Shown one piece after another: positions 10,449-39,446 of a DNA stretch of 40,504 nt; within the stretch, counting starts at the first letter, position 1; each line of letters begins with the position of its first letter. A program made the position numbers and the translations under genes. Below the pieces are notes generated by a model that saw only the letters and a program-made list of their open reading frames with translations, was not told where the DNA came from and made no database searches. Origin of the DNA: an uncultured Geobacteraceae bacterium (GTDB taxonomy: Bacteria; Desulfobacterota; Desulfuromonadia; Geobacterales; Pseudopelobacteraceae); contig CAIRND010000619.1 of NCBI GenBank assembly GCA_903879825.1, positions 1-40,504 on the forward strand. Reading direction: 5' to 3'.

Positions 10449-13184
10449 TCAACTTTCAGGCCCTCTCATAGCATCTGCCACTACACGGCTCAATTCACCC
10501 CGGTTATATGGTTTTTGAATAAACCTGCACTCTTCCAACCCTGCCAATTCATCTCCGGTGCCTTCTTGACTGAATCCGGAGCAGAACAATACCGCCACCT
10601 CGGGGTCTTGTTCCCTCAGCAGCAAGAAAGTCTCAACTCCCCCTTTCTTCGGCATGATCATGTCCAGAATAATCAGCACAATATCGCTTCGGTGAGCATC
10701 AAAAACCTCCAGAGCGTGGTCGCCGTTTTCAGCAAGGTATACCGTATAGCCAAGACCTTCCAGTAAATCGCAGCCGACGGTGCGCAATATTTCTTCATCG
10801 TCGACCAGCAAAATAGCACCGCTGCCAAAAACGACATCTTCACTGTGCGCCTGTGTACTTGTTTCATCAGCAACCAGCGGGAGATATATTTTAAAAACTG
10901 AACCAAGGCCGGGACGGCTCAAAACGGTGATCTCTCCCCCATGATTTTTTACCGTCCCATACACAGCAGACAACCCGAGGCCGGTGCCTTTGCCGACCCC
11001 CTTTGTCGTGAAAAACGGTTCAAATATGTGTTCAATGACCTCTGCACTCATCCCCTCGCCGGTGTCTGATACCGCGATTTCAAGATAATGTCCCGGTTCG
11101 AGAGAGATGTTCAGTGACCGGCAGGAGGCATCATCCAGCCTTTTTTCAGCAGTTTCATAGGTTAGCGTGCCACCCTGCGGCATTGCATCACGGGCATTAA
11201 CCCCCAAATTAAGAAGCATATTCTGCAGTTGGGCCTGATCACCCATTACAATTGAATCGTCACTTCCTATGCAAGCGATGCGCTGTATCTGCTTGTCAAT
11301 TGTATGCTCCAGCAGGTTCATAACGGAGGCAATGGTGTCACTAATACGAACCGGGCTTAAAGCCGATGTTTCTTTGCGAGAAAAAGTCAGCAGTTCACGG
11401 GCCAGATCTGCTGAGCGGGTCGTTGCTTCGATGATGATATTAATCATTTTATGGTTGGTTTTATCGCTCGGTAGCCGTATTTTTAGCAATTCTGCAGCGG
11501 CAAGGATTCCGGTCAGCATATTGTTGAAATCATGGGCGATGCCGCCAGCCAACTGGCCGACGACATCCATCTTCTGCGATTGCTGCAACTGGCTTTGGAG
11601 CCGTTTTTGCTCCGTTATCTCCATGACGGTACTCAAAACACACTGCCTGCCGGCGATGTTAAGCAGCGCGCCAGAGAAAAGTACCGCTATTTCTTCACCG
11701 TCTTTACGCCGCATTCTTGCCTCAAAGCTGTGGACATAACCGTTTTTACGCAACAATTGCAAATATCTGACCCGTTCCTCCTCCTTCACCCAGAGAACAA
11801 GATCAAAAGATGTTTTCCCGATTACCTCCTCCAGGCTATAGCCGAACATATCTACGAAGGCCTGATTAACCTCGCTGAATTTGCTTTCGGGAATGGTCGT
11901 AAGTGCCACGGTGATGGGGGAATGGTCAAAAACCGCCTTAAATTTAATGGACGTCTCTTCGGTTTCTTCCAGCTGAACTCGTAACTGCTCCTCACTTGCA
12001 AGTAGTTGGTCGTGGGTAATCATATGCTCATCAACCTGATCCCGCAGCATCTCCTCAGTTACCTGCAACTCTTCCTGAGACTCCTGATACTGTTCGATTC
12101 GAAATTGAAGTTCACTGGTGAATCTGTTTTTCATCCGCAGCATGGTTCTAAAAAGCAGTACGAGGACAAGGGTGACCAACGCAGTCGCCCCAACCATTGC
12201 GTTTCGAAGCGTTATCGCTTCCCGGTTCAATTCATCTAACCACGACCCGGCGCAAACAACCCAATTCCACTCCTTCAGAGTGCGGTAGGCGACCAGCTTC
12301 TCCCTCTCTCCCGTTTCACCAAGCTCACTGTTGAACCAGGGATAGCGGATGGTCCCGTTTTTTTTATCCAGGATCTCCCGGATGAAGGCACGACCGCCAG
12401 AGTCTGATGAATTAATAATGTTGGTACCTTCTTTGGCAGGGTGAATCTGAAGTTTTCCATAGTCGCGCCCCTCCTTGGCATCAAGGACGTAGATATACCC
12501 GCTCCGTCCGATTTTGGTGCTGCGGATTTTCTCCTTGAGCCCTTCAAGGTTGTCGGTAAAATCCAGACCGATAAAAAGCACGGCAATAACGTTACCGGCG
12601 CCATCCTTGACCGGCTGATATGAGCCCATGTAATCTTTGCCGAACAGCTCGACCTTGCCCACATATCCGACTCCACTCAATAGGTTTTGATATGCGGGAT
12701 GACGTACATCAAGGGATGAACCGACGGCTCGACTACCATCCTCCTTTTTTAAAGAGGTCGCTACCCGGATAAAATCGTTTCCGGAATGAACAAACACAGA
12801 GCACACCGCCTTGGTTTCGGTGGTGAAACGATCAACTACCGAATTATTCAGGTTAATGACGAACGGTCCGTTTTTAAGGAGTGGGGTCTTTATATTACCA
12901 ATAGTAACGCTTCTGGTGAGGTCACGTGAGAATGCTCCGGAGAAATTGGCTTTGAAGACGTTACCGAGAGTTACGGCATTTTCCGATAATGTTGAATGGT
13001 AGGACGACATGGTGCTGACAAGGAGATCCACCTGTTGCGATAATTCTTCTTCGGTACGTTTTTCAAGGCTTCGCGACGTATATGTCGTCAGCGCCACAGC
13101 AAACACGACCAGGACGGCGATGATCAGCAGGGTGAAAACCAGCGCTGTATGGGATCTTATTGGACGTTCGGATGAGGAATTCAT
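10449..13184 (-). CDS. Cache (Cache_3/Cache_2-type) - PAS - hybrid histidine kinase - REC
   Basis: TM-flanked Cache region (GRSGYIYVLDAKEGRDYGKLQIHP...WNWVVCAGSW), AHDFNNMLTGI H-box, GTGLGLSAVYGTVKNHGG, REC ILLVDDEEI...LDMIMPKKGG. ATG at 13184 overlaps the upstream stop as ATGA. Confidence 0.93.
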   Translation of the reverse strand: MNSSSERPIRSHTALVFTLLIIAVLVVFAVALTTYTSRSLEKRTEEELSQQVDLLVSTMSSYHSTLSENAVTLGNVFKANFSGAFSRDLTRSVTIGNIKTPLLKNGPFVINLNNSVVDRFTTETKAVCSVFVHSGNDFIRVATSLKKEDGSRAVGSSLDVRHPAYQNLLSGVGYVGKVELFGKDYMGSYQPVKDGAGNVIAVLFIGLDFTDNLEGLKEKIRSTKIGRSGYIYVLDAKEGRDYGKLQIHPAKEGTNIINSSDSGGRAFIREILDKKNGTIRYPWFNSELGETGEREKLVAYRTLKEWNWVVCAGSWLDELNREAITLRNAMVGATALVTLVLVLLFRTMLRMKNRFTSELQFRIEQYQESQEELQVTEEMLRDQVDEHMITHDQLLASEEQLRVQLEETEETSIKFKAVFDHSPITVALTTIPESKFSEVNQAFVDMFGYSLEEVIGKTSFDLVLWVKEEERVRYLQLLRKNGYVHSFEARMRRKDGEEIAVLFSGALLNIAGRQCVLSTVMEITEQKRLQSQLQQSQKMDVVGQLAGGIAHDFNNMLTGILAAAELLKIRLPSDKTNHKMINIIIEATTRSADLARELLTFSRKETSALSPVRISDTIASVMNLLEHTIDKQIQRIACIGSDDSIVMGDQAQLQNMLLNLGVNARDAMPQGGTLTYETAEKRLDDASCRSLNISLEPGHYLEIAVSDTGEGMSAEVIEHIFEPFFTTKGVGKGTGLGLSAVYGTVKNHGGEITVLSRPGLGSVFKIYLPLVADETSTQAHSEDVVFGSGAILLVDDEEILRTVGCDLLEGLGYTVYLAENGDHALEVFDAHRSDIVLIILDMIMPKKGGVETFLLLREQDPEVAVLFCSGFSQEGTGDELAGLEECRFIQKPYNRGELSRVVADAMRGPES

Positions 13185-16100
13185 TTTCGTAGATCCTTTC
13201 TTGACGAACACCGTTCAAATATTCCACGAGGCCACTGCTCACCGCTGAGCCACATATCCAATTTAACCAGCAAGTCGGCCAAAATCAGCGGTTTAGATAG
13301 ATGATCATCCATTCCGGCGGCGATGCATCTGTCACGGTCCTGCTTAGAGGCGTTTCCGGTGAGCGCTATGACCGGAATATCGTGACGAAGTACTGGTGAA
13401 GCGGGGTCACGGATAGCAGCGGTTACGTCGTAGCCATTCATTTCCGGCATCATGCAATCCATCAGCACAAGTGCATATTCATGCATCTTAAGTGCCTGCA
13501 ACGCCTCTGTGCCATCACCCGCCACATCGACCAGGTAGCCGTAACTCTTCAGTAATCTTGGTATTATTTTCTGTGCCACCGGGTCGTCCTCTGTCAGCAG
13601 GATGCGGATGGGGATTGAGCTTTTATTCCATTTCAGTTCACACTGGAGGTCACGGCGGACGGGGAGGATCTCAATGCCCCTACTCTGTTTCGTCATTACA
13701 ACGGTAAACCAGAAGGTGGAACCTATGCCTTCGCTACTTTCGGCACCGATACGTCCCCCCATTAATTCCGCCAACTGTTTGCATATTGTCAGCCCCAGTC
13801 CAGTGCCGCCATATCTGCGTGTGGTAGAGCTGTCTGCCTGGGTGAATGGCTTGAAAATCTGCTCCAGTTGGTCAGCCGCGATACCGATGCCGCTGTCCTG
13901 CACGAGAAAACGGAGAGTCACGGCATTTTCATCTTCGCTATCTTTTCGTATCAGAAGCTTTACCGAGCCTTGGGGGGTGAACTTGAGGGAGTTGCAGACA
14001 AGGTTGTTCACGATTTGGCGCAGCCGTCCCGCATCACCATGTAAAGCGGTTGGAACTTCGGCATCTATCTCCCAGGTTAGACTCAGTACCCTTTTGCGGG
14101 CGGAAAGTGAGAGGAGCTTGATGACCTCCGAAATTTCCGTCCGTAAGTCAAAACTGGTTGTTTCCAGTTCTATTTTGTCGGACTCAATTTTTGAGAGGTC
14201 GAGAATGTCGTTAAGCAGACGGACCAAATCGAAACCTGAATTTATGGCGCTTTCTGCACATTCGTTCTGTTCCGGCGTCAGCTCGGTATGCAGCAGCAGT
14301 TGGATCATGCCAATGACACCGTTCATCGGGGTGCGGATCTCATGACTCATAACGGCCAGAAAGTCACTCTTAGCCCTATTGGCGCTTTCGGCTGCTGTTG
14401 TGGCCAGATGCAGCTCTTGCACGGTTTTACAGCGCTGTGTGATGTCGTTCGCTGTACCGGTCGCTCCAATGATGGCACCATTATCATCCATTTTATAAAT
14501 GGCTTTTATTACCAGGATTATTTCGTTAGTAGACTTTCCAATAAAGGTACTTTCAAATTCACCAATACATTCGCCACGCATCAGTCGGAGCAACTCTTTC
14601 ATGCATTGAGCCGCATTATCAATAGACTGAAACTCGGTGAATTTCTTTCCGAGCATCTCACCCAATTCGTAACCAAAAACCTGCTCTACAGCCTGATTCA
14701 GGTAGGTGAATCTTCCCTCAGTGTCACATTTCCAGATTACATCCTGCGATGTTTCGACCAGTGACTGGTAGTGCCTCTCTGACTTTCTGAGCTGTTGTTC
14801 CACCCGTTTACGATCTGAAATATCGCGATGAACCGCTAAAATCAATTGCTCGCCTCGTGACGTGAGCAGGTTCGCCGATACTTCAAGTGATAAAGTATGG
14901 CCATCCCTGTGATACTGTTCCACTTCAAATGTGAGGGGTTCACCGGAGAGAACCTTTTGCATCCTCTCCGGAGTCAAACAGGTGGTTTCAGGCGTATCAA
15001 GTTCTTGTATCTTCATCCGATACATTTCCTGAGTGCTGTATCCGTGTGTCTGTGCAAAGGCTGGGTTGACCGACTCTATGGTGCCTTGGCACGTCATCAA
15101 AAATATGCCGTCTTTTGCACATTCAAATAACGCCCTAAACTTTTCTTCGCTATCGAATAACGCCTCTTCCGACCTCTTACGGTCGGTTATGTTCTGAATC
15201 ATCCAGATGGAACCCGCCTCCGGTATTTCACTGTCGATTGCCTGCCCGAATATACTGCAGTATACCGGAGAGCCGTCCTTCTTTTTCATCATCAATTCAA
15301 TGGGATGGGTTTTACCCTCGGCAATCACCCGATACGCTTCTTCTCCTGTGGACTCAAACGTTTTGCTGTCCGGGTAAAAAACAGAGGTATTCATGCCTAT
15401 TGTTGTTCCAATTTCGTACCCTAAAATTACGTCCAGTGCAGGGTTGGCAAAATGTATTTTTCTATCCTTTAGAACGCATGCGCCTATCGGAAGCGTATGT
15501 AAAATTATTCGCAGCTCGTGTGCCAACGCGGAAACCTCTACCGTCCGCTCCTCCACCTGCCGTTCAAGTTCAGCGTGTGCCAGCAGCAACTCCTGCTCCA
15601 TCCGCGTGCGGTTGGTAATGTCGCGTGAAACACCAAGCACTGAAATCACCATGCCATTCTCGGCACATTCCGGAGTTAATCGCCAATCAAGCACAACAAT
15701 CCCGGCGCTGCGTTCCCACTCAAACTCAAACTGGTGTGGTTCTGCTGTATCAAACACGTTCCGTATCTTTTTTTCCCAAGAGAGACTTAGCTCTTCCGGA
15801 TACCCGCTTTCCCGGTGTGTTTTGCCGAACACGTTTGACTCTGTCATTCCAGAGGCTTTTAAACCTGCTGAGTTCATATAGGTATGCCGGCACTCTCGGT
15901 CATAGCGCATAATGTAATCTTGGCTGCTCTCGGCAAGGGAGCGGAACTTTGCCTCACTCTCCCGCAGCTCCTTCTCCGACGTGCTCCGTTCAATCATTCT
16001 CTTGCGAAAAAAATAGCCACCACATATCAGAAATAAAGTGGTAACGGGGACAATGTATTTAAGCACGTCGCGTAATGTGGTCTTTTTTACTTCATAGACG

Positions 16101-16837
16101 CCGAACCATTTATTGTATATGGCATCATAAGCACCACTCGCCTTGACCAAGGCGAGTCCTTCATTAACCCTGGCAAGCAGTTCCGAATCCCCTGTATGTA
16201 CTCCAATAGAGAACTTCTGTGCATACCCCGCTTTTCCATCAAGAACCTTGATGTTTTTAATGTTTAATTCTCTAAGAATCTGTATCCCCGCAAGCCTGCT
16301 TAGAAGCATAGCGTCGTGCTTTCCAGATGCAAGTAGTTTAAGACCCTCTTTTGCTGTGTCAACGATGACAAGCTGCTTGTGCCATCCTTTTGAAACAGCA
16401 TATTCATGTGCCAGATCTGATTTGAATACGATGATGGTTTTACCGACAAAATCGGCTTCTGAACTGATAACTGACTCATTCACGCGCGTAAAGATTGCTC
16501 CATGTGCTGTAACGAGAGGGACGCTGAAATCCGTGTATTCGTGTCGTTCATCCGATTGGGCTATATTTATCAGAATATCGACTGTACCATCTTTGAACTC
16601 CTGCAGGATCTGCCCCCATGGTCTTACACGGATCACATATTTCAGCCCCGCTTCTTTGGCTACCTCTTTCCAAAGATCAACGGTAAAACCGTCAGCGGTT
16701 TCATCAGTCCGGCCAATGGCAAACGGATGGAAATCCTCCTCGCTGCCAACAATTAATGTTTTGGCGGTGGAGTCAGCGGCCCCGGCTATTAAAGCATTAG
16801 TCAGAAAGCACACCATAAGAAGCAGCCGAATAATCAT
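13181..16837 (-). CDS. BvgS-like hybrid kinase: signal peptide - SBP_bac_3 - TM - multiple PAS - HisKA/HATPase - REC
   Basis: Signal peptide and SBP_bac_3 style (GFTVDLWKEVAKEAGLKY...WGQILQEFKDGTVDILINIAQSDERHEYTDFS), [51 protein letters not shown]. Confidence 0.94.
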   Translation of the reverse strand: MIIRLLLMVCFLTNALIAGAADSTAKTLIVGSEEDFHPFAIGRTDETADGFTVDLWKEVAKEAGLKYVIRVRPWGQILQEFKDGTVDILINIAQSDERHEYTDFSVPLVTAHGAIFTRVNESVISSEADFVGKTIIVFKSDLAHEYAVSKGWHKQLVIVDTAKEGLKLLASGKHDAMLLSRLAGIQILRELNIKNIKVLDGKAGYAQKFSIGVHTGDSELLARVNEGLALVKASGAYDAIYNKWFGVYEVKKTTLRDVLKYIVPVTTLFLICGGYFFRKRMIERSTSEKELRESEAKFRSLAESSQDYIMRYDRECRHTYMNSAGLKASGMTESNVFGKTHRESGYPEELSLSWEKKIRNVFDTAEPHQFEFEWERSAGIVVLDWRLTPECAENGMVISVLGVSRDITNRTRMEQELLLAHAELERQVEERTVEVSALAHELRIILHTLPIGACVLKDRKIHFANPALDVILGYEIGTTIGMNTSVFYPDSKTFESTGEEAYRVIAEGKTHPIELMMKKKDGSPVYCSIFGQAIDSEIPEAGSIWMIQNITDRKRSEEALFDSEEKFRALFECAKDGIFLMTCQGTIESVNPAFAQTHGYSTQEMYRMKIQELDTPETTCLTPERMQKVLSGEPLTFEVEQYHRDGHTLSLEVSANLLTSRGEQLILAVHRDISDRKRVEQQLRKSERHYQSLVETSQDVIWKCDTEGRFTYLNQAVEQVFGYELGEMLGKKFTEFQSIDNAAQCMKELLRLMRGECIGEFESTFIGKSTNEIILVIKAIYKMDDNGAIIGATGTANDITQRCKTVQELHLATTAAESANRAKSDFLAVMSHEIRTPMNGVIGMIQLLLHTELTPEQNECAESAINSGFDLVRLLNDILDLSKIESDKIELETTSFDLRTEISEVIKLLSLSARKRVLSLTWEIDAEVPTALHGDAGRLRQIVNNLVCNSLKFTPQGSVKLLIRKDSEDENAVTLRFLVQDSGIGIAADQLEQIFKPFTQADSSTTRRYGGTGLGLTICKQLAELMGGRIGAESSEGIGSTFWFTVVMTKQSRGIEILPVRRDLQCELKWNKSSIPIRILLTEDDPVAQKIIPRLLKSYGYLVDVAGDGTEALQALKMHEYALVLMDCMMPEMNGYDVTAAIRDPASPVLRHDIPVIALTGNASKQDRDRCIAAGMDDHLSKPLILADLLVKLDMWLSGEQWPRGIFERCSSRKDLRK

Positions 16838-27089: not shown

Positions 27090-29249
27090 CTACGTTAAAA
27101 CATCAACTCCAGTCATCGGCACCACACCCACCAACGCCCTGCGGATTGATATATCAAGATCCGTTACTGAATACGGTTTTAGGACAAAATCACTGATTCC
27201 GGTCTCCCTGGCCTGCTTTTTATTGATCGATTCGCTGAATCCGGTACAGAGGATAATCGGAAAATCCGGTCTGACATCTATCAACTCCAAGGCCAGTTCC
27301 TTACCGGAGAGCCCCGGCATAGTCATATCTGTAATAACCAGATCGAAAGCATACGGATCAGAGCGGAAAAGATTCAGAGCTTCAACGCTGCTTGACGTTG
27401 CCGTTACAAAGTAACCAAGAGATTCGAGCAGTTCCTGCCCTAATTCTACCAGCACTGTTTCATCGTCAACAAAAAGAATACGTTCAGCGCCGCCCCTGAG
27501 TGGAACATCAGCTTTGTTGATATGCGTGATCTCATCCGCAATCTTCGGGAAATAAATCTTAAATGTTGTTCCCTTCCCCGGCACGCTATAAGCGCTGATT
27601 GCCCCGCCATGGCTCTTAACAATTCCCTGCACCACTGCCAGCCCCATACCGGTTCCTTCGCCTATTTTTTTGGTGGTGAAATAGGGATCAAATATTCGTT
27701 CCTTGACAGCTCTATGCATACCATGTCCAGTGTCACTGACCTCCAACAGCACATATGCCCCGGGAGTGAGATCGGAGTGAAGCGCAATAAGTGCTGCATC
27801 AGCAGTAATATCCGACACAGATACATTCAGAATACCTCCCTTAGTACGCATTGCATGAGCCGCGTTGGTTCCCATATTCATCAACACCTGGTGGAGTTGG
27901 GTTTCATCGGCCAGAACCGTGCATCCGTCAGGCAATGTGGTATTCTGCTGGTGAATCTCGACTGTAGTCGGCAGTGTAGAACGGAGTAATTTCAAGACCT
28001 CTTCGATTACTGGGCCCACCTGCACTGGCTTCCGTTCCAGTTCGCTCTGGCGGCTGAAAACCAGAATACCGTTCACCAAGTCCCTGGCACGTTCGCTCGC
28101 AACCAGTACTCTTTCCAGATCGCGTTGCGCGGCATCATTGGTCAGCTTGCACTTCGCCAGACCAGTATAACCAATTATTGCGGTCAGGATATTGTTGAAA
28201 TCGTGGGCGATACCTCCGGCAAGTGTCCCAATCGCCTCCATCTTCTGTGACTGACGTAACTCGCGCTCCAGTTTTTTGCTTGTTGTTATGTCGCGGCCTT
28301 CCGGAATAAGAATCAAAACATTGCCGTCTTTATCCAGTATCGGTTTCAGCGAAAAATCGATTGCAGAGTGTTTCCCATTGAGGCCCTGATGTTCTGTTTC
28401 GAAACGTACGAAGTTACCCGACGCCGCCTCTTTGACGGCATTCCGGATTTTATCCTGCAATGCTTTCGAATGAGACCACCACGGGGTTTCCCAGAAGTGA
28501 CGTCCCAGTACTGCTGACTCATTTATGCCGCAAAAATCCAAAGCGGTTTTATTTACCTCCAACAGGACACCTTCAGGGGTCAACAATCCGATCATCTGAA
28601 AGGTCTGGTTAAAAATAGCACGAAATTTCAGCTCACTTTGGCGCAATGCCTCCTGAACAATCTCACGGTCTTCGATCTCCTCTTCAAGACGTGCCGCCTG
28701 TTCCTGAAGCGACTCCTGCGTAGCCTGCCGTTCGGCAATTTCATCCTCCAATTGCCGGTTGGCAATCGAAAGGTCTGTTGTCCGTTCTTCTACTCGCCTT
28801 TCCAGATTATTATTTGCTTCTTGAAGTTTTCTGGTTAGTTCACGGTTGTGCAAGTGGACTCCAATACGAGCCAGCAACTCCTCCCGCTGAAAAGGCTTGG
28901 TGATATAATCAACAGCCCCGACGGTAAGGCCCTTTACTTTATGTCCGGTTTCGGCAAGAGCCGTCATAAATATTACGGGGATATCTTTTGTCCCTTCAAG
29001 GAGCTTTAACCTGCGGCAGGTCTCATAGCCGTCGATCCCCGGCATCATAACGTCGAGCAGAATGAGATCCGGCCGGGCATAATCAGCTCTCTGGATGGCA
29101 CTCTCACCATCTTCGGCTACGAGAATAGTGTAATTGCACTCCACCAGACAATCGCGCACGACGGAGAGATTGTTGACATCGTCATCGACCGTCAGAATGA
29201 CCGGTTTATGCCCGCCGTATGTGGTTGAAATTTGTGCATGTGCATTCAT
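27090..29249 (-). CDS. REC-PAS-hybrid histidine kinase-REC
   Basis: N-terminal REC ([10 protein letters not shown]...[13 protein letters not shown]), [36 protein letters not shown]-terminal [20 protein letters not shown] overlap with upstream kinase. Confidence 0.93.
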
Positions 29250-31684
29250 GGTCGGTTTCTCCTGTGCTGTACTGCCAAAGCAACAATGGCCTTGGTCTTA
29301 AATCCTCTCGCCAACTCACGCAGTGTGTCGGCAAAACGTGTGTAAATATTATCTTTTGCTGCCAATTCATCTGCCCAGGACTCAATTTTTAACATATCAC
29401 CCATCATGGCCAACTCGTACAATTGTTCGATCTCTGTGTCGCCAGGAGTTTCCAGCTGCACCATATTCGTATTTACATTCCGGTTATCCGGCACTATTAT
29501 ATTTTCTACTGGTGAAGTAATCCACTCGATTTCAAGCAGTCTCCCGATTTGCGCCAGTAGCAGATCTATCCGGATCGGTTTGGTCACGAAATCGTCGCAC
29601 ACGGCTATAAATGCCTCTTTATGGGCACTATCGGTGGCCGTAGCCGAGGCCCCGATAATTTTTGTTGCCATCAAGTCCCGGTTTTCACGCATTGCTGTTG
29701 CAGCCTCTACCCCATCCATCTCCGGCATTACCAGATCAAGCAGAACCATGTCGGGGCGATGCTCTTCCGCCCGCAGCAGCGCCTCCCGGCCGTCCAATGC
29801 CGTATTAAGCACAAAGCCCAGCGGCTCCAGCAACGAAACAAGCATCGAGGTATTGCCGATATTGTCGTCGACCACCAGAATCCTCTTACGTGCCCCCACA
29901 TACCCGATAACGAAGCTATCCGACTTCTCCAGAGCTACCTCATCATCCATCAGCATCGGCAGCGCCAGCTCAAACCAGAATGTACTTCCTGTGCCTGGTG
30001 CGCTTTCCACACCCATCCGGCCCTGCATAAGCGCCAGCAGGTGTTTCGTTATATTCAGCCCCAGCCCGGTACCTACTCGGATCTGTCGATCAGACACCAG
30101 TTGAGTAAATGGTTCAAAGATCGTCTCCAGCTTATCAGACGGAATGCCGACCCCGCTATCCACCACTTCAAAACGAAACAGATCAGTACCTGTATGATCA
30201 TAGCTCACCCGCATGACAACGCCGCCCCGGCGGGTATTTTTGACCGCATTGCTGAGCAGATTTAGCAGTATCTGGCGAACTTTGCGTTCATCACCCCGGA
30301 CATACGACGGCAGCGGGGTAACTTCTTCATTGGCAAATCCCAACTCTTTTTCTTTGGCCTGTAACCGGGTGAGATTAAATACCTGCTTCAAAAGAGCAGG
30401 TAGGTCAAAGACCACGTGTTCCACATCCATCTTGCAAGCTTCAATTTTGCCCACATCCAAAATGTCTGTGATCAAAGTAAGTAGATGCTCGCCGCTACCA
30501 CGCATGATGTCCAACTGCTGTCGCTGGGTTCCCGTCAAATTTTCCTGATGCTTCAGAATCTGGGCATAGCCGAGAATCGCGTTCAGCGGTGTGCGCAACT
30601 CATGGCTCATGCTGGCAAGAAAATCGCTCTTGGCCCGATTTGCCGCTTCAGCCTGCTCCTTGGCAACAGTTAGCTCTGTCGTGCGTTCATCGACCAGTTC
30701 TTCAAGATGGTCGCGATGCCTTATCAGTTCTGCTTCAACAGCCTCGCGTGCCTCCACCTGTATTTCCAGCTCCTGAACATTAACCTGCAGTTCATTCTGG
30801 ATCTGCTCTAACTCCATCACGTTTTCCTCAAGCGCTTCCTCCCGATCCCGAATGGCACCAGACATTCGGTTGAATTCAGCGGAAAGACGACCTATTTCGC
30901 TATTGGGAGAGATAACGTTAACCGTATTGTATTCTCCATTGCCAAGCTCTTTTGCCGCATTGATGAGTGCGTATAAGGGGCGGGTCAGAAAGGTAATGAA
31001 CATATAGAGCAGACCAATCCCAACGGTGGAAAACAGAACTGCCAATATTCCGCTTCGTACGATAATTTGCTGTTCGGACCTACTCATTACCTCCTTCGAG
31101 ATACCGATCCGCACCCAGCCAACCTGTTCACTGACCGGTGGCGCAGAGCCTCCGCCCCCGTCCAGGAGATACAGCCCTTCAGCTGCTTTGACAGTGACCA
31201 CTGGGACAATAAATTCAAAAACATTGTCATGCTCGAAAAAGCTGGTTGCTCTATCAGGATCTATGGCCAATAATTCTTTCAGGGGGAACTTTATGCCTTC
31301 GTGAAGCAAGACATTTGAATCTTTATTGAGGAAAGAAACAAAGGCGACGTCTTTAATCGCCATCAATGGTCGGGCAGAGATTTTCAACTGTTCAAGGTTT
31401 TCAGACAACAACGACAGCTCCGCATTTCTGGCGACGATGACGGCTATTGTCTCCCCTTTTTTGATAATTTCATTCTTGAGTATTTTTCTTTCGGTGGAGA
31501 TTGATTCGATTGTGTACCCGGCCGAAATGATGATTATCAACGGGAACAGGAACAGGACCGCCTGCCATCTGAAGGTTAGCGGAACCGCCGCCTTTAATCG
31601 GTCAATTAACCCGGATTTCCATAGTCTGAGCACCGGATTACCACCCGTCATGAGTTTATCTGCCGCTGGAGGTTTCACTATCAC
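29246..31684 (-). CDS. Membrane hybrid histidine kinase (periplasmic sensor, HAMP, HisKA, HATPase, REC)
   Basis: Two TM segments, [59 protein letters not shown] start overlapping the upstream TAG (TAGTG). Confidence 0.92.
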
Positions 31685-32598
31685 TAATAGACCTTTTTTG
31701 CTTTCCTGAACATTTCATCGGGTATCTCAATCCCCATTTTCTGCGCGGTATTGCCGTTTACATATAAATTGTATTTTTTGGGTGGTGACGCGGGAAGATC
31801 TCCCGCTTCACCGCCATTCAATATGGCCTGCACTTTTTCACCGATCTGTCGGCTGATCGCCTTATTATCAAAGACGAGCGCAAACAGGGAGCCCTGTTTG
31901 ACATGCGCTTCCGAGATGCCAAGCAGTGGGATATTTTTTTTGAAGGAGAACAGAAACACATTAGACATGATCGGAGCGGTCAGCAGATTGGCGTCCGGGA
32001 GTAGCAACAGCGCTCCGGTATCGGAGAGCCGGTTTACGGTATTAACCAGTTCGGATGAGCTGCCAACATTATAGATGGTCACCTGCGCAGAGTTCCCGCC
32101 GGACAGGCTCTTTACCATATTCTGGCTTCCTACGACAGAAATTTTGGAGAGTGCCGGTAAATAGCGCCGAAGGGTTGAGACATATTCACTCACTGGAGGA
32201 GCCATATACACTCCGGTGATGTTTTCCCTGTTGTTCCTGGGGGGGGCGACGACCAGGCCATAGACAACGGATATCTCAGGCGGCAGGCGCAGGGCTTCAG
32301 CGACCGCATCCACCCCCAGCGCCACGACGATCTGTGCATCCTCGCGTTCCACCACCGCATTGAGTCGGCCTTTAACATCGGATGTTGCATACTCCTTGCT
32401 CTGCATTCTCAGAGTACTCTGAATGTCAGATACAATATCTGCAACCATCGCATACTGGGTATCGCCGACTATAAGAATTTTTGCGGCACAGGCGGGGGAG
32501 GTGAACAGCAGTAAGACACAGATAAAAAACGCCGATGAGAGGAGATCTCGGCGCGCTGATACGGACAGGTAAATGTGAGGAGTAAAAACTTTCAGCAT
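31684..32598 (-). CDS. ABC_sub_bind-type periplasmic substrate-binding protein
   Basis: Signal peptide [20 protein letters not shown] then [14 protein letters not shown]...[12 protein letters not shown]...NITGVYM...[13 protein letters not shown]; start corrected to the ATG at 32598 because the 32760 start runs far into the TonB gene. Confidence 0.82.
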
Positions 32599-32629
32599 GT
32601 AAGCAGGTTCCTGTGTATCTATCAAGAAA

Positions 32630-34738
32630 TCAAAACCGGTACGACGCGGTGACAAATCCGGAAATCCCTTCACGCGGGAAATCACCAGGAACTTTGGGCC
32701 CTGTCGCGGTAAGGTTAGACAAACCACCTGAGGTATCCGGATCCTTATAGCGCTGATCAAAGAGATTACGAACAGTAGCCTGAATTTCCAAAGTCTCGAA
32801 GAAGTTTTTCAGCGTTAACGCCACATCTACGGTAGTATTAGCGGCCACATCTGGGCGGCTGTCTCCCAATGCGCGTGGACGAGGGCCGGTCCAGAGCACG
32901 TCGCTATGCAGGGTGGTATATTTATTAAGACTATAGTTGAGACTGCCGCCGGCGCGTTGCGACGGCACAGAGGGGAGTCGCCGACCGGAGCTGTCACGCG
33001 GGTCCTGCCAAGCATAGTTCGTCTTCCAGGAGAGATCAGAGCCAACAGCGCCGTTCAGCCCCAGTTCGACACCCTGGGTTGTAGAATTACCGATATTGGC
33101 AAAGCGGGGGACGGGGGCGACGGTTGTATCCCAGACGATCAGATCGCTGATAGAACTATAGAAGTAGTTAAGCCCAGTGCCAAGAAAACGGTTAAAACGG
33201 TAGGCAAGAGCAGCCTCGTAGGTCTTGATTCTTTCCGGTTTAAGGTTGACATTGCCGAGCACGACCGGATTGTTGGCATCGTAAAGTTCGACAAAGCTGG
33301 GAGCCCGGAAAGCCTGTCCATAGAGCAGTTTCAGATCGGCGTTGTCCAGAAAGCTCCACACCAGACCGACGCGTGGGTTAACGGTATCGCCAAAATCACT
33401 GTAATGATCATAGCGCACCCCGGCGGTGAGATTAACCTGCGCCGGCAATTGCCACTCGTCTTGCATGTAGGTCGCTAAAATATGGCGCGTTGCATTTTTG
33501 TTCCAATTGGCAACGTCTTGTACCGGGCCGATAGAGGAGAAGTTATTCGGATCAAAGTTGGCCCGCTGACTGACATCGTACTGTTCCATGAGTTCGAATG
33601 ATACACCAGCGACAAGATGATTGTTCTTGAACGGATCCCAATCAAACTGCTGTTCATAGCCTATGGTTCTGGTCTTCACCAGCGGTTCACCGATCATGCC
33701 GTTTGGAAAACTGCCGCCGAAACCGTTCGGAAGAATTTTGTCCTGACCGTTTTGATCCCAGTAATCAAAATGAACTTTCATATTTGTTGAAAGCCCGTCT
33801 CTAATGCGCAAGTCATAGGCCAGTTCTGTCCAGTAGTTGACATTTACCGGGCGGTCGCCATCGGTGAGAGCAGATGCAAGCCCAATGTACAACCCCTCTT
33901 TTTTTTCGAAGTAATGCCCACGGAATGAAAGATCACCGTAGCCGACTTTTATAAATGCATCGGTTCTCCTGACACCCTGATCGGGAGTCCCTGGGGCCTG
34001 AGAAAATGGTGTTCCAGACAGTGTATCAGCTCCTACTGTCAGCTTGTCGCCGTTGCTCTTGTATTGATCAAGACTGCCGGAAATCGTCAGCTTGTCGCCG
34101 AAACTTCTGCCCCCCACCAGACTTGCCTTATAGGTTTCGAAGCTCCCACCTCCCGCCTTCAACTCCAGGCCGTTGATCTCTTGGGCAGTACGGGTAATGA
34201 TGTTAATGGTGGCGACAAATGCGCTGTTGCCATAGAGGGCCGAGCCGGGTCCTCGCACCACCTCAACCTGTCGGATGTTTTCCACAGGAAGTGTGCCGGC
34301 CAGATTGTAAAGGATGGAGCTCCCGTTCATATTTCTATTCAGGGAGTGGCCGTCGATCATGACCAGAATTTTTTCGCTGAGCGAGGTTCTAATTCCGCGA
34401 ACCTCAATCATCATGGTGCCATATTCGTTGATTGATATCCCGAAGCCAGGCACCATTTTTAGCACATCCACGAGGGTACGTGCCCCCATGTCCTTGATCT
34501 GATCAGCGGTGATTATTGTAGCAATGGCGGGGGCTTTGCGCAGTGAGGTGGGTCGTTTGGTGGCAGTCACAAGGTCATATTCTTCGACAAACATCAGCAG
34601 GTCTTTATTGTCGGTCAGGCTATGGTGCGCCGCAGCCTGTTCCTTTTGTGAGACAGACTCATCAGCCCCCTGAACCGAGCCATAGATGCCCAGGCCAACT
34701 ACCAGTGACAGACAGGCGACAAAAGCTACCTTATTCAT
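32630..34738 (-). CDS. TonB-dependent outer-membrane receptor
   Basis: Signal peptide, plug (KAPAIATIITADQIKDMGARTLVDVLKMVPGFGISINEYG...IRQVEVVRGPGSALYGNSAFVATINIITR), beta-barrel ending GFVTASYRF. Confidence 0.95.
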   Translation of the reverse strand: MNKVAFVACLSLVVGLGIYGSVQGADESVSQKEQAAAHHSLTDNKDLLMFVEEYDLVTATKRPTSLRKAPAIATIITADQIKDMGARTLVDVLKMVPGFGISINEYGTMMIEVRGIRTSLSEKILVMIDGHSLNRNMNGSSILYNLAGTLPVENIRQVEVVRGPGSALYGNSAFVATINIITRTAQEINGLELKAGGGSFETYKASLVGGRSFGDKLTISGSLDQYKSNGDKLTVGADTLSGTPFSQAPGTPDQGVRRTDAFIKVGYGDLSFRGHYFEKKEGLYIGLASALTDGDRPVNVNYWTELAYDLRIRDGLSTNMKVHFDYWDQNGQDKILPNGFGGSFPNGMIGEPLVKTRTIGYEQQFDWDPFKNNHLVAGVSFELMEQYDVSQRANFDPNNFSSIGPVQDVANWNKNATRHILATYMQDEWQLPAQVNLTAGVRYDHYSDFGDTVNPRVGLVWSFLDNADLKLLYGQAFRAPSFVELYDANNPVVLGNVNLKPERIKTYEAALAYRFNRFLGTGLNYFYSSISDLIVWDTTVAPVPRFANIGNSTTQGVELGLNGAVGSDLSWKTNYAWQDPRDSSGRRLPSVPSQRAGGSLNYSLNKYTTLHSDVLWTGPRPRALGDSRPDVAANTTVDVALTLKNFFETLEIQATVRNLFDQRYKDPDTSGGLSNLTATGPKVPGDFPREGISGFVTASYRF

Positions 34739-34844: not shown

Positions 34845-36176
34845 TTAGAGAGTGACTGGTGCCTGCTGCTTGCGTAGGATCTTGTCAGCATACATTAGTT
34901 CGTCAGCTTTTTTGAGAGTCTCTGGTATTTTTTCACCAGTAGCAGCTGTAGCTCCACCCAACGATATTCTTACTGAAGGCTCACCATTATTAGCATTGTA
35001 AATTTCAACACAAGACCTAATTCGCTCAATTGCTATTACTGCTTCCTCATAGTCCATTTCTCGAAGAAGTACCACAAATTCGTCGCCACCCGTGCGAGCT
35101 ACGATATCATTCCCACGAAATACCATTTGTAAAATAGTGGCAGCACCTTTAATTACCTGGTCGCCAGCACCGTGCCCCAGCGTATCATTGACCTGTTTTA
35201 GTCCATCAAGATCGGCGACTATAATGCTAACGGGAAACTGCCTGCCACGAGCAGCAAGTTCAAGCTCAGCATCGAAAAAAGCCCTGTTGTAGAGTCCTGT
35301 TAATGAATCATGGGTGCTTTGGAATTTCAAGAGGCCTTCTGTTTTCTTACGGACTGTTATGTCACGAGATACTCCAACAAATTCCTTAATTTTTCCATCC
35401 GAATCAGTGATTGCAGAAATTACCACCTCAACATTGATGACCCTTCCATCCTGACAAACCTGCTCGATCTCGATAACTTCGGGTTGAGAATCTGCGACAT
35501 GGTGATTTTGAGCATTCACTATTTCATTAGATAAAGCTTTGCGCAATGTGGCAAGAGATTCTGGAGTCATAGCTTGTTCAATTGGTTCTTGTAGTGCTTC
35601 AGCGACACTCAGGCCGCGAAGCCCGGCAATTGAAGGGCTAATATAAGTAAAATGTTCCATAGAGCGGTCAAGAGTCCAAATAACATCACTTACATTCTCA
35701 GCAATGTGCCGTAAACGTTCTTCGCTCTCTCGTATTGCATCTGCCTGCTGCTGAAGCTTTATATTGTTTTCTAAAAGCTGCCGATTCATACCTTCAAGTT
35801 CGTTACGAGATTTTTCAAGCTGCTTAACCATCATGTTAAAGGATTCGGAAAAATCACCCATAAAATCTACTCGCTGGGTGAAATCTCCCGATGAAACCAT
35901 TTTGGTCTGCCAGGTCAGGTGGTTTAACGATGCTTGTAATGCCTTAATAGCTCCGGGCATATATCCTTTTGCAGTGACTTTATAATTCAAGTTACCAGAT
36001 GCAAAAGCCATGATAGCCGTTCTAACTTCCAATAAAGATGCGTATAGCTCTGAATAACCTCCTACTCCTATTAACTCAGGTGGTTCCGCAGAGACCCCCT
36101 GTGCTGTAAGGAGGTCATGCAGGTTCTTAACTGCTACATCAAAAAGATCTACGTTGTTTTCTGCTGCCTTAGTCAT
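34845..36176 (-). CDS. Cytoplasmic HAMP-like/PAS diguanylate cyclase (GGDEF)
   Basis: PAS, then FRGNDIVARTGGDEFVVLLRE: intact GGDEF with RxxD I-site five residues upstream; no clear TM. Confidence 0.95.
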   Translation of the reverse strand: MTKAAENNVDLFDVAVKNLHDLLTAQGVSAEPPELIGVGGYSELYASLLEVRTAIMAFASGNLNYKVTAKGYMPGAIKALQASLNHLTWQTKMVSSGDFTQRVDFMGDFSESFNMMVKQLEKSRNELEGMNRQLLENNIKLQQQADAIRESEERLRHIAENVSDVIWTLDRSMEHFTYISPSIAGLRGLSVAEALQEPIEQAMTPESLATLRKALSNEIVNAQNHHVADSQPEVIEIEQVCQDGRVINVEVVISAITDSDGKIKEFVGVSRDITVRKKTEGLLKFQSTHDSLTGLYNRAFFDAELELAARGRQFPVSIIVADLDGLKQVNDTLGHGAGDQVIKGAATILQMVFRGNDIVARTGGDEFVVLLREMDYEEAVIAIERIRSCVEIYNANNGEPSVRISLGGATAATGEKIPETLKKADELMYADKILRKQQAPVTL

Positions 36177-36179
36177 TTG

Positions 36180-36701
36180 CTATACTACCGCCTTTGCTTC
36201 AAATCGGCAGGTGCGGTCACCAGTACACCAACAATCAACTTCTTTTACAATAAACTTCATCCCTGAAAAACATTCCAATAAAGAGGATATAAAACCTTCA
36301 TCATAACTGCAGATTTCGTAGTCAAGTTCCGGCAGTCCGGAGCAGTCCAGATCTTCTGAGACTGTCACGGTTATTTCGCCCTTTTCTAAATCCGCTTTTT
36401 CAACGCGTAAAATTCCAATGCCAAGCTCTTTAAGAACTTCCTGCAACTCACGAACAAATTCGTTCAGATCCGTTGTCGGTGTAAGCATATGCTCATAAAA
36501 CTCTTTCCCGGCCAGAGCGCCAGATTCATAGAATATCTTGTCAGTTTCTTCCGTTCCAACATGCTGTTCAATCACATCTCGAAAAGCAAACTGCAGCAAA
36601 CGATAGACTTCAAGGCGTGTAGTATTACCCAGGTTAGGTCGTCCCGCTTCAATGTCTCCAAGAAGACTCCACGAAAATTTATATTTACGATCACTGTTCA
36701 T
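36180..36701 (-). CDS. V4R (4-vinyl reductase) domain protein, putative small-molecule sensor
   Basis: C-terminal EICSYDEGFISSLLECFSGMKFIVKEVDCWCTGDRTCRFEA typical of V4R; stop 3 nt before the GGDEF start. Confidence 0.87.
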   Translation of the reverse strand: MNSDRKYKFSWSLLGDIEAGRPNLGNTTRLEVYRLLQFAFRDVIEQHVGTEETDKIFYESGALAGKEFYEHMLTPTTDLNEFVRELQEVLKELGIGILRVEKADLEKGEITVTVSEDLDCSGLPELDYEICSYDEGFISSLLECFSGMKFIVKEVDCWCTGDRTCRFEAKAVV

Positions 36702-36742
36702 AAATCCACCTTCTCAATTTAATGGGCCATGTTAGTTAACGA

Positions 36743-37327
36743 TCAATCGTTTACATTCAATCGCTCTATTGCATGGCGGATTTTAGCCCTGGTTTCCCCG
36801 GAATCGCTCTGAATATGAAACGCTTCGATCTCCTCACGATGCAAATGTACGTTAATAGAATGTCCACCTGAAGCTAATCGCATAGTATGAATTTCTCTCT
36901 CTGGGTTCAGTTCACCATTGTCAAAGCAGAGAACCGACAAACCAACGCTATGTTGGTCCGCTACTTCTCTTCCCAGTCTGATTAGGTCTTTTACGCCGTT
37001 TAAAAAGTGCAGTTCTTTCTGCACGAGGTGATCAAGAAAATCACAGGGTTTTCTTTCGTCTTCCGTAAATTCGAGTGCCATCAGATCTGATTCAAAGCGT
37101 ACAATCTGTGCATCTACCTTTTGGTATGAGTGGGTATTATCGGCTTGATGTAACATTAGGCTGCATTTGTCGCCTGGTTCAGTCGTTTCATGGGGTGTTC
37201 TTTTTAAGCTCAATAGCACTCCATTTTTAGAGATATTCTGAATCCGGCAATTGATTTTAGAGTCATTGAGTTGCAACCACCCATTACTGAACAAATCAAC
37301 TCGTTGTGACTGTCTTTTTTCGCTCAT
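36743..37327 (-). CDS. PilZ-domain protein
   Basis: RQSQRVDLFSNGWLQLND...CRIQNISKNGVLLSL: RxxxR and NxSxxG PilZ motifs. Confidence 0.85.
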   Translation of the reverse strand: MSEKRQSQRVDLFSNGWLQLNDSKINCRIQNISKNGVLLSLKRTPHETTEPGDKCSLMLHQADNTHSYQKVDAQIVRFESDLMALEFTEDERKPCDFLDHLVQKELHFLNGVKDLIRLGREVADQHSVGLSVLCFDNGELNPEREIHTMRLASGGHSINVHLHREEIEAFHIQSDSGETRAKIRHAIERLNVND

Positions 37328-37457: not shown

Positions 37458-39446
37458 TTACATGCTCCGCGTATACTCTGATTCCAACTGTTCAAGAAGT
37501 ACAACAATCTCCTCAGAATAGCCTTCCATCTCGATATACAGCGTATGTACCAGTTCTATCTTTCCACTTTTACACGCTTCCTGAGCCTTCATTGCTAATG
37601 AATGTACTTTTTCGTGTGGTGGCACTATGGCGTTAAAGCTCGGCAACGAACGCAAAGCCTGCCCTGCGGGAGAATCATACCATTTGCCAAAACGGCAGGT
37701 ATGATGATCAGGAAGTTTCATAGCATGAAGATCTTTTTGCCCGCCATGAATACACGTTGCAATCTTCTGTACAAAAAGCCGGTGATCCGATTTAGCGAGC
37801 TCTATCATGGTAAGCGCTTCCATCGGTACGGTCACTTTTGCGACTGCCTCACGGATACCTTCGTCTGCCTTCCCCAATCTGAAAACAGAGCTGGTAAGTT
37901 CAACGGCAAGGGCGGAAATGCCTTCCGATGCTTCACGGCCCCTATCAACATTTTTGGATATTTCAAGAGAGTTTGCTGATTGTTCTTCCGTTGCGATTGC
38001 AATTTCTACGATACTTTTGCTTACCTGATTATTGATGTTCGATATTTCGTTGAGACTGTTGGTTGATGCCTGAATAAGACCATACACATCTTCAATCTGT
38101 TTTTTTACTTCCTGCGCCGTTACTGATGTTTCGTTTGTTTCTTTCTGAACGGACTTAATCATTGAAGCAATTTCTTTTGTTGCCCGTGTTGTGCGCTCAG
38201 CCAAATTCCTGACCTCATCAGCGACAACGGCAAAGCCACGTCCCTGTTCACCTGCCCTGGCGGCCTCTATAGCAGCATTTAAAGCAAGCAGATTAGTCTG
38301 GTCGGCAATCTCAGCGATTGTGTCGGATATCGCACCAATTGACTCGGTCGTAGTATTGAGAATCAACAATTTGCTCTGTAACCCTTCCATCACATCTTTG
38401 GCCGCAACCATAGCTTCAATACTGCGGTTACTCTTTTCTGAACCACTCATTGCTTCTCGGGATGCTTGTTCTGACAGCTCCGCGGCGTGAGAAGCGGTTC
38501 GTGCCAGTGCACCGATTGTCTCACTCATATGTGCAACGGCAGAGGCATTTTCACAGGTTGCACCCGAAAGAGTTGTCGAGCTGTCGAGGATATGCGAGGC
38601 GTTTTTCTTAACTTCAAATGCCGAGCAAATAACCACTGATATTGAACGAATGATATCGTTGAGAATGTCTGACAATGATCCTTTCATCGAATTCAACTGG
38701 TTGCAAATGTCACTAATTTCATCTTTACCCGGAATGATACATTCAACGGTCATATCACCTGCGGCTACTATTTTTACCTGTTCCTGTATCAAAATGACTC
38801 TGTTGACTATTCCCTTTTTAATAAACCAACTGAGCACCAAAATTATAACGAACATTACCCCCGCAATAGTGAGGTGTTTGAGTGCACTTGATAAAAATAT
38901 CCGATTCACATCGTCTATATATATCCCACTTCCAACAATCCACCCCCAAGGTTCAAAGCCTTTTACAAACGACACTTTCTTAACTGGTTCCGTCGCACCT
39001 GGCTTTGGCCACATATAGTACACAAAACCGGATCCAGTCTTTTTTACCGTTTCAGCAAATTCTACAAAAAGTTTTTTCCCGTTTGGGTCTTTGGAGTCAG
39101 AAAGATCCTTACCGTTTAATTCCGGCTTGATTGGATGCATGACCATTGTGGGATGCATGTCATTGATCCAGAAGTATTCTTTGCCTTCATATCGCATTGA
39201 TCCGACTGTAGACATTGCAAGCGACTTTGCTTCCTGCTCGGTCATTTTGCCGTCTTTTGCGAGTTTATAGCAGCTTTCAATTACAGAATGGGCCGACTCA
39301 ACAAGATGCCTTGTTTTAAGCTCCTTTTCTGCCAACAGGTCATACTTGCTCGAAAAAAGTGAATAACATGAGATTCCAACCATACCGAGAAGAGAAATAA
39401 TGGTTATAAGCAACAGCTTCTTACTGAAATTCAGGTTTTGCAGCAT
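37458..39446 (-). CDS. Methyl-accepting chemotaxis protein with single-Cache sensor and C-terminal CZB (chemoreceptor zinc-binding) domain
   Basis: Cache ([36 protein letters not shown]...[13 protein letters not shown]), signalling tip, C-terminal [16 protein letters not shown]...[10 protein letters not shown]. Confidence 0.94.

Follow-up and report, generated by a model that had tools for sequence, protein, structure and literature searches.

A stand-alone V4R gene and its soluble tandem-HAMP neighbour in a Geobacteraceae genome as one case of a candidate widespread two-gene module

The window analysed here is the whole stretch of 40,504 nucleotides from contig CAIRND010000619.1 of an uncultured Geobacteraceae bacterium. 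Open reading frame calls and Pfam matches place the genes of a PilZ protein, a V4R protein and a PAS-GGDEF protein in a row on its minus strand, as in the PilZ-V4R-diguanylate cyclase cluster of the original prediction. The PilZ gene (36743-37327, minus strand; 194 amino acids; Pfam PilZ, E = 2.1e-9) carries the RxxxR and NxSxxG motifs claimed for it, in the intact forms RQSQR and NISKNG, and lies 41 nt ahead of the co-directional V4R gene. In the 173-amino-acid product of the latter (36180-36701, minus strand), V4R (PF02830; E = 1.5e-12; 47.8 bits, above the gathering cut-off of 31) is the sole domain found by Pfam, without an AAA+ or HTH fusion, and the protein is thus stand-alone, as had been proposed. 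Its stop codon is separated from the ATG of the next gene by 3 nt, exactly the distance originally given.

This next gene (34845-36176, minus strand) encodes a protein of 443 amino acids, with an N-terminal helix, an 87-residue tandem-HAMP (diHAMP) transducer module (35805-36065, minus strand), a PAS domain (35358-35720, minus strand; Pfam, E = 2.1e-9) and a GGDEF catalytic domain (34881-35315, minus strand; Pfam, E = 1.6e-35). Both the A-site and the RxxD I-site are intact, as first reported, in the motif RGND-IVART-GGDEF (RGND-x5-GGDEF), in which GGDEF starts at residue 363 and RGND stands five residues earlier; by its A-site and I-site the protein is predicted to be an active diguanylate cyclase. 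Since the peak 19-residue hydropathy is only 0.94 in the cyclase and 1.06 in the V4R protein, both look soluble. The earlier description of a soluble HAMP-like/PAS-GGDEF enzyme stands as to solubility, PAS and GGDEF, but its HAMP part is a tandem of two, not one. Pfam detected neither an EAL nor an HD-GYP domain among the 20 main proteins of the window, in agreement with the claim that it lacks a phosphodiesterase.

Elsewhere the window has a sensory character, with hybrid kinases, chemoreceptors and CheW. A chemoreceptor upstream of the PilZ gene (37458-39446, minus strand) bears a C-terminal CZB zinc-binding domain, so that it and the V4R protein are two putative zinc-site sensors as neighbours. 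Genes for a TonB receptor, an ABC substrate-binding-like protein, a hybrid histidine kinase and a multi-receiver kinase follow one another head to tail at 27090-34738 (minus strand), possibly as a single nutrient-sensing operon, and the SBP_bac_3-PAS-kinase hybrid at 13181-16837 (minus strand) has a front end of the type seen in SBP-PAS-V4R fusions of other genomes.

The V4R protein contains the predicted C-x22-E-x2-C-x7-C pattern exactly, at C131, E154, C157 and C165, a putative Cys3-Glu zinc/thiol site (36207-36311, minus strand). When the same protein was shuffled, the pattern arose in 88 of 200,000 trials, and in 54 diverse homologues sharing <80% identity, a better test of the motif than shuffling, all four residues are invariant. 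With this rarity and this invariance taken together, the pattern is not a product of chance. C120, just ahead of the stretch, is likewise invariant in the family, and C159 is nearly so (51 of 54). Over the whole family, which spans many phyla and archaea, 31 alignment columns are invariant, and the mean pairwise identity is 60%. A viral collection gave 11 pattern matches, and a relative is encoded by none of them.

An AlphaFold model of the V4R protein (pLDDT 83.7) was compared with the PDB by Foldseek; MopR (5kbg, E = 4e-8) ranked first and PoxR second, with MJ1460, TRAPPC3 and DmpR next, and the values for MopR, PoxR, MJ1460 and TRAPPC3 (1e-6 to 4e-8) assign the model to the V4R/Bet3 fold. 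In the family profile alignment, C131, E154, C157 and C165 align one to one with C155, E178, C181 and C189 of MopR and so superimpose on its zinc site, as had been expected. The window protein is thus like MopR, DmpR and PoxR in its fold and in four zinc ligands at identical spacing. However, it is stand-alone, whereas theirs is fused to AAA+/B-linker segments, and the similarity is weak: the family profile finds MopR, DmpR and MJ1460 only at E values from 0.017 to 0.065. With the profile aligned to MopR, weakly supported in the H106 region, V89 and I111 stand at the places of MopR H106 and W134, which we take to be the equivalents of the phenol-positioning H100 and W128 of DmpR, and neither place carries a conserved His or Trp among the 54 homologues. 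In DmpR, phenol sits between His100 and Trp128 (PMC7264223).

The same C/E/C/C residues occur at the same spacing in MsvR, a V4R redox regulator of methanogens, whose hosts are also anaerobes. They are found in two MsvR proteins from methanogen bins, one above the MsvR cut-off (L152) and one slightly below it (L153), and the C120 position is also present in one MsvR. The redox cysteines of Methanosarcina acetivorans MsvR, C206, C232 and C240, on which redox control by this protein depends, have the spacing of the V4R motif (PMC3729527). MsvR is the best NCBIfam model for all 54 family members, each of them below its cut-off. Membership itself was rejected: MsvR is a one-component DNA-binding protein, and the window V4R scores 60.9 bits against an equivalog cut-off of 220, matches profile positions 104-235 only and is without the N-terminal HTH. 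The suggested comparison with the bacteriochlorophyll 4-vinyl reductase BchJ (TIGR02019) also came to nothing, at 14.9 bits against a cut-off of 74.3.

Because MsvR has the identical C/E/C/C, the spacing does not single out DmpR/PoxR. What the original prediction had taken for their signature holds as to residues and spacing, and as to the fold, which is nearest to MopR and PoxR; judged from the sequences compared, however, the motif appears to be V4R-wide and not specific to DmpR/PoxR or to phenol sensors. In the same way, the fold and the zinc ligands speak for the proposed aromatic or hydrophobic ligand sensor, but the phenol-positioning pair is replaced by V89 and I111 and the motif is general, and identity as a phenol sensor was set aside as unproven. 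A thiol/redox or metal reading of the site is at least as good as the phenol reading.

A scan of genome contigs gave 80 loci of this V4R family (55-91% identity), spread over many phyla and including two archaeal bins; among their hosts are Desulfuromonadota, other deltas, Clostridia, Sporomusa, Synergistetes, Nitrospirota, Verrucomicrobia, methanogens and others. In all 80, a co-directional diHAMP gene lies within 1.2 kb 3' of the V4R gene, mostly with an intergenic gap of -4 to +60 nt. The V4R-cyclase linkage is thus conserved, far more widely than the window could show. Since these loci had been found via V4R and had served to define the module, independent genome samples were used as a test. 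Among 148 genomes across the phylum of the window (thresholds: V4R >120 bits, module >90 bits), the V4R family is present in 11 and diHAMP in nine, all nine within the 11 (p = 7.5e-13). Of the 13 strong diHAMP genes in this sample, 11 directly follow a V4R gene on its 3' side and two are without an adjacent V4R, while seven of 18 V4R genes are without an adjacent diHAMP, three of them fused to PAS sensors and about four orphans. In 300 genomes from the phylum of a Sporomusa relative, both parts occur in the same eight (p = 7e-16; 2.5e-14 without the seed genome). Furthermore, eight genomes behind V4R loci contain nine V4R and nine diHAMP genes in a 1:1 ratio, adjacent in nine of nine cases. 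No single-chain V4R-diHAMP fusion was seen in these data.

The window pair has the arrangement that defines the proposed module, with the V4R gene first and, directly 3' of it, the gene of the soluble diHAMP-output protein. Its two genes can thus be read, from gene order and sequence, as one case of a widespread two-gene module, in which a free-standing V4R gene lies directly upstream of, or overlaps, a gene for a soluble diHAMP-output protein. No description of V4R paired with HAMP, GGDEF or SpoIIE partners was found in the open-licence literature, and, judged against those papers, the unit is apparently undescribed. V4R-V4R-partner genes stand in tandem at two loci (L067:5319-6519 and L100:689-2638). 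A second, shorter V4R subfamily (around 150 amino acids; L161:3154-4511, L162:3611-4990, L163:2466-3794 and L164:1239-2929) is located directly upstream of small kinase-like or GGDEF proteins without a diHAMP match, and given this subfamily V4R-enzyme pairing may extend beyond diHAMP partners.

The constant part of the partner is the 87-residue module, which is almost without length variation and has the consensus GDLS...KG..AG.LK.LQANLRHLTWQT..IA.GDF.QRVDFMGEFS.AFN.MV. In the AlphaFold model of the window cyclase it corresponds to helices at residues 41-59, 72-95 and 108-139 (pLDDT 94), a modelled three-helix layout that fits two HAMP domains in series. Pfam HAMP (PF00672) matches 46 of 54 partner proteins at E < 0.01, and the window cyclase at 5e-5 (23.9 bits, slightly below the Pfam cut-off of 25). 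Foldseek of the tandem HAMP against the PDB ranks the poly-HAMP of Aer2 first, nominally and not significantly (E = 0.35), and for this reason the HAMP assignment rests on Pfam and the helix layout. A PDB profile search with the diHAMP alignment retrieved mainly designed coiled coils, which were taken as compositional. The predicted concatenated cytosolic HAMP units resemble those of Aer2, a soluble receptor; in Aer2 the sensor is part of the same chain as the HAMPs, unlike V4R, which would act in trans. HAMP proteins without a membrane segment are unusual, and a membrane segment is absent from all 53 partners checked. Weaker diHAMP relatives (44-68 bits; L145:3388-5178, L146:3388-5553 and L142:4056-5570) have other N-terminal regions and no V4R neighbour, and are possible ancestors or cousins of the partner.

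The outputs behind the module vary. In 54 non-redundant partners they are GGDEF (35), HATPase (10), HisKA (eight), PucR-type HTH (HTH_30; three), Hpt (three), SpoIIE (two) and HD (two). Even V4R proteins 87-91% identical to that of the window precede PAS-GGDEF (L024), GGDEF (L026, L030 and L031), histidine kinase (L029) or SpoIIE-type phosphatase (L025, L027 and L097) outputs. A V4R tree with output labels requires at least 16 parsimony changes, a number that is only indicative, most inner branches being weakly supported. In a set of 34 GGDEF-bearing pairs, Mantel correlations are 0.60 for V4R with diHAMP, 0.27 for V4R with GGDEF and 0.26 for diHAMP with GGDEF; divergence of the module is closer to that of V4R, encoded by the adjacent gene, than to that of the GGDEF domain in its own chain. 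Pairing of V4R with GGDEF as such was ruled out, since the outputs differ between loci and V4R divergence is not mirrored by that of GGDEF. As V4R proteins of close relatives face a phosphatase or a histidine kinase, the conserved partner of V4R appears from these sequences to be the tandem-HAMP transducer rather than the diguanylate cyclase.

Three of these loci resemble the SiaABCD threonine-phosphorylation pathway of c-di-GMP control, in that the V4R partner is a SpoIIE/SiaA-type phosphatase. At L027:3283-7144, L097:6001-9907 and L025:6001-10277, V4R and a soluble SiaA-type phosphatase are followed by SiaB, SiaC and SiaD-like genes (in L027 the phosphatase is SiaA-like at 259 bits, with SiaB, SiaC and SiaD homologues behind it). 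In Pseudomonas, the Sia pathway controls the cyclase SiaD, and SiaA has two membrane-spanning regions ahead of its HAMP (PMC7647112). The V4R-linked phosphatase is soluble, unlike Pseudomonas SiaA, and has V4R in trans; we read these loci as a Sia pathway in which V4R replaces the membrane sensor region.

That the PilZ-V4R-cyclase trio is a functional unit with PilZ as its dedicated effector would fit the common strand, the 41-nt gap and the intact PilZ motifs. By phmmer, however, no relative of the window PilZ occurs near V4R in about 100 other loci, close relatives have different genes ahead of V4R, and the congeneric genomes each have PilZ genes elsewhere, among the matches listed. PilZ was thus ruled out as a conserved component of the module, and a dedicated trio is improbable; PilZ may be a local c-di-GMP effector accessory to this genome.

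The best overall explanation, to which we give a probability of about 0.7, is that V4R acts in trans, via the HAMP stack, on whichever enzyme follows, and that its cue is most likely redox/thiol. Control in trans is suggested by the linkage at all 80 loci, the co-occurrence, the swapped outputs, the Mantel values (0.60 against 0.26) and the lack of a membrane segment. Joint inheritance, instead of contact, can also account for adjacency and correlated divergence, and it might be argued that the two genes are mere co-transcribed neighbours, with a separate role of V4R such as metal or lipid binding; some V4R genes are orphans. But the adjacency is kept across phyla despite the changes of output, co-occurrence of V4R and diHAMP is near-exclusive and their divergence is correlated, all of which makes simple neighbourhood very unlikely.

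As for the cue, a redox/thiol or zinc-site signal is suggested by the invariant C/E/C/C and C120, by MsvR as best NCBIfam match and by the precedents of MsvR and H-NOX. Stand-alone H-NOX proteins with adjacent HnoK or HaCE are small sensors that regulate histidine kinase or diguanylate cyclase partners in trans from adjacent genes, as V4R would. Some H-NOX proteins bear a Cys3+1 zinc site, the oxidation of which can be the actual signal, controlling a kinase in trans (PMC12329717), and a resemblance of both HNOB and V4R to a third domain, MetOD1, has been noted in passing (PMC5847659). Unlike H-NOX, which binds heme, the V4R protein gives no evidence of heme, and its contact is probably the tandem HAMP. 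A MopR/DmpR-like sensor of aromatics or other hydrophobics, likewise acting via HAMP, would agree with the best fold matches (MopR and PoxR), with the aligned zinc ligands and with the hydrophobic-ligand binding proposed for V4R domains (PMC2253512), and deserves some weight. It is nevertheless rather doubtful, given V89 and I111 at the places of H106 and W134, the C/E/C/C of the redox regulator MsvR and a family constancy that is unusual for a host-tuned ligand sensor. V4R might also be a relay rather than the primary sensor, handing on in trans, to the tandem-HAMP protein, what other sensors perceive. One genus has V4R at the C-terminus of SBP_bac_3-TM-PAS-PAS-PAS proteins, in the usual position of a histidine kinase; PYP-V4R fusions without any output domain are known (PMC12826048), which may not be of the same V4R subfamily; and the very high conservation would suit a protein-protein surface that is obligate. 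Since the majority of members stand alone, without an attached sensor, and the conserved metal/thiol site suggests sensing of their own, a relay role is unlikely. The SBP_bac_3 fusions (L134:4837-7749, L135:2606-5701 and L136:3-2786) carry V4R of the same subfamily as the window protein, and that in L134 lies just 3' of a V4R and diHAMP-SpoIIE pair. Overall we rank a redox/thiol or metal cue before a hydrophobic ligand, and the latter before a relay; by analogy with MsvR and H-NOX, redox/thiol input at the Cys3-Glu zinc site appears the most likely, and such a cue (or a metal) seems more likely than a phenol-like aromatic.

In the preferred reading of control in trans, V4R and the diHAMP protein would form a complex, in which V4R would sense its cue and contact the HAMP stack. 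The stack would then move between helical states and switch the output, which in the window, a PAS-GGDEF enzyme, would mean a change in c-di-GMP that the nearby PilZ could read locally. The cue at the Cys3-Glu zinc site, redox/thiol state or metal, is proposed with less certainty than the complex. Signal hand-over from the V4R fold to a helical bundle has a precedent in DmpR, where a coiled-coil B-linker joins the V4R domain to the ATPase (PMC7264223).

Annotations call V4R proteins 'hydrocarbon binding' or '4-vinyl reductase', and little is known of their function. Their position beside a tandem-HAMP transducer, with c-di-GMP synthesis, phosphatase, kinase or DNA-binding outputs, gives them a testable role and a testable partner, and V4R with diHAMP looks like a general sensing system of anaerobes rather than a phenol sensor. 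In a still broader view, for which we see about even odds, anaerobic bacteria and archaea would share a general signalling system made of two proteins, V4R and the tandem-HAMP module, as a counterpart of two-component systems that works without a phosphorelay; V4R would act in trans as zinc/thiol sensor or as relay for PAS-type sensors, and any enzyme could stand behind the HAMP stack. The module resembles a natural plug-and-play sensor, in which sensor and transducer are fixed and the output is exchanged. If the zinc/thiol cue is correct, it would point to a route, parallel to H-NOX, by which redox stress is coupled to c-di-GMP and other outputs in many anaerobes.
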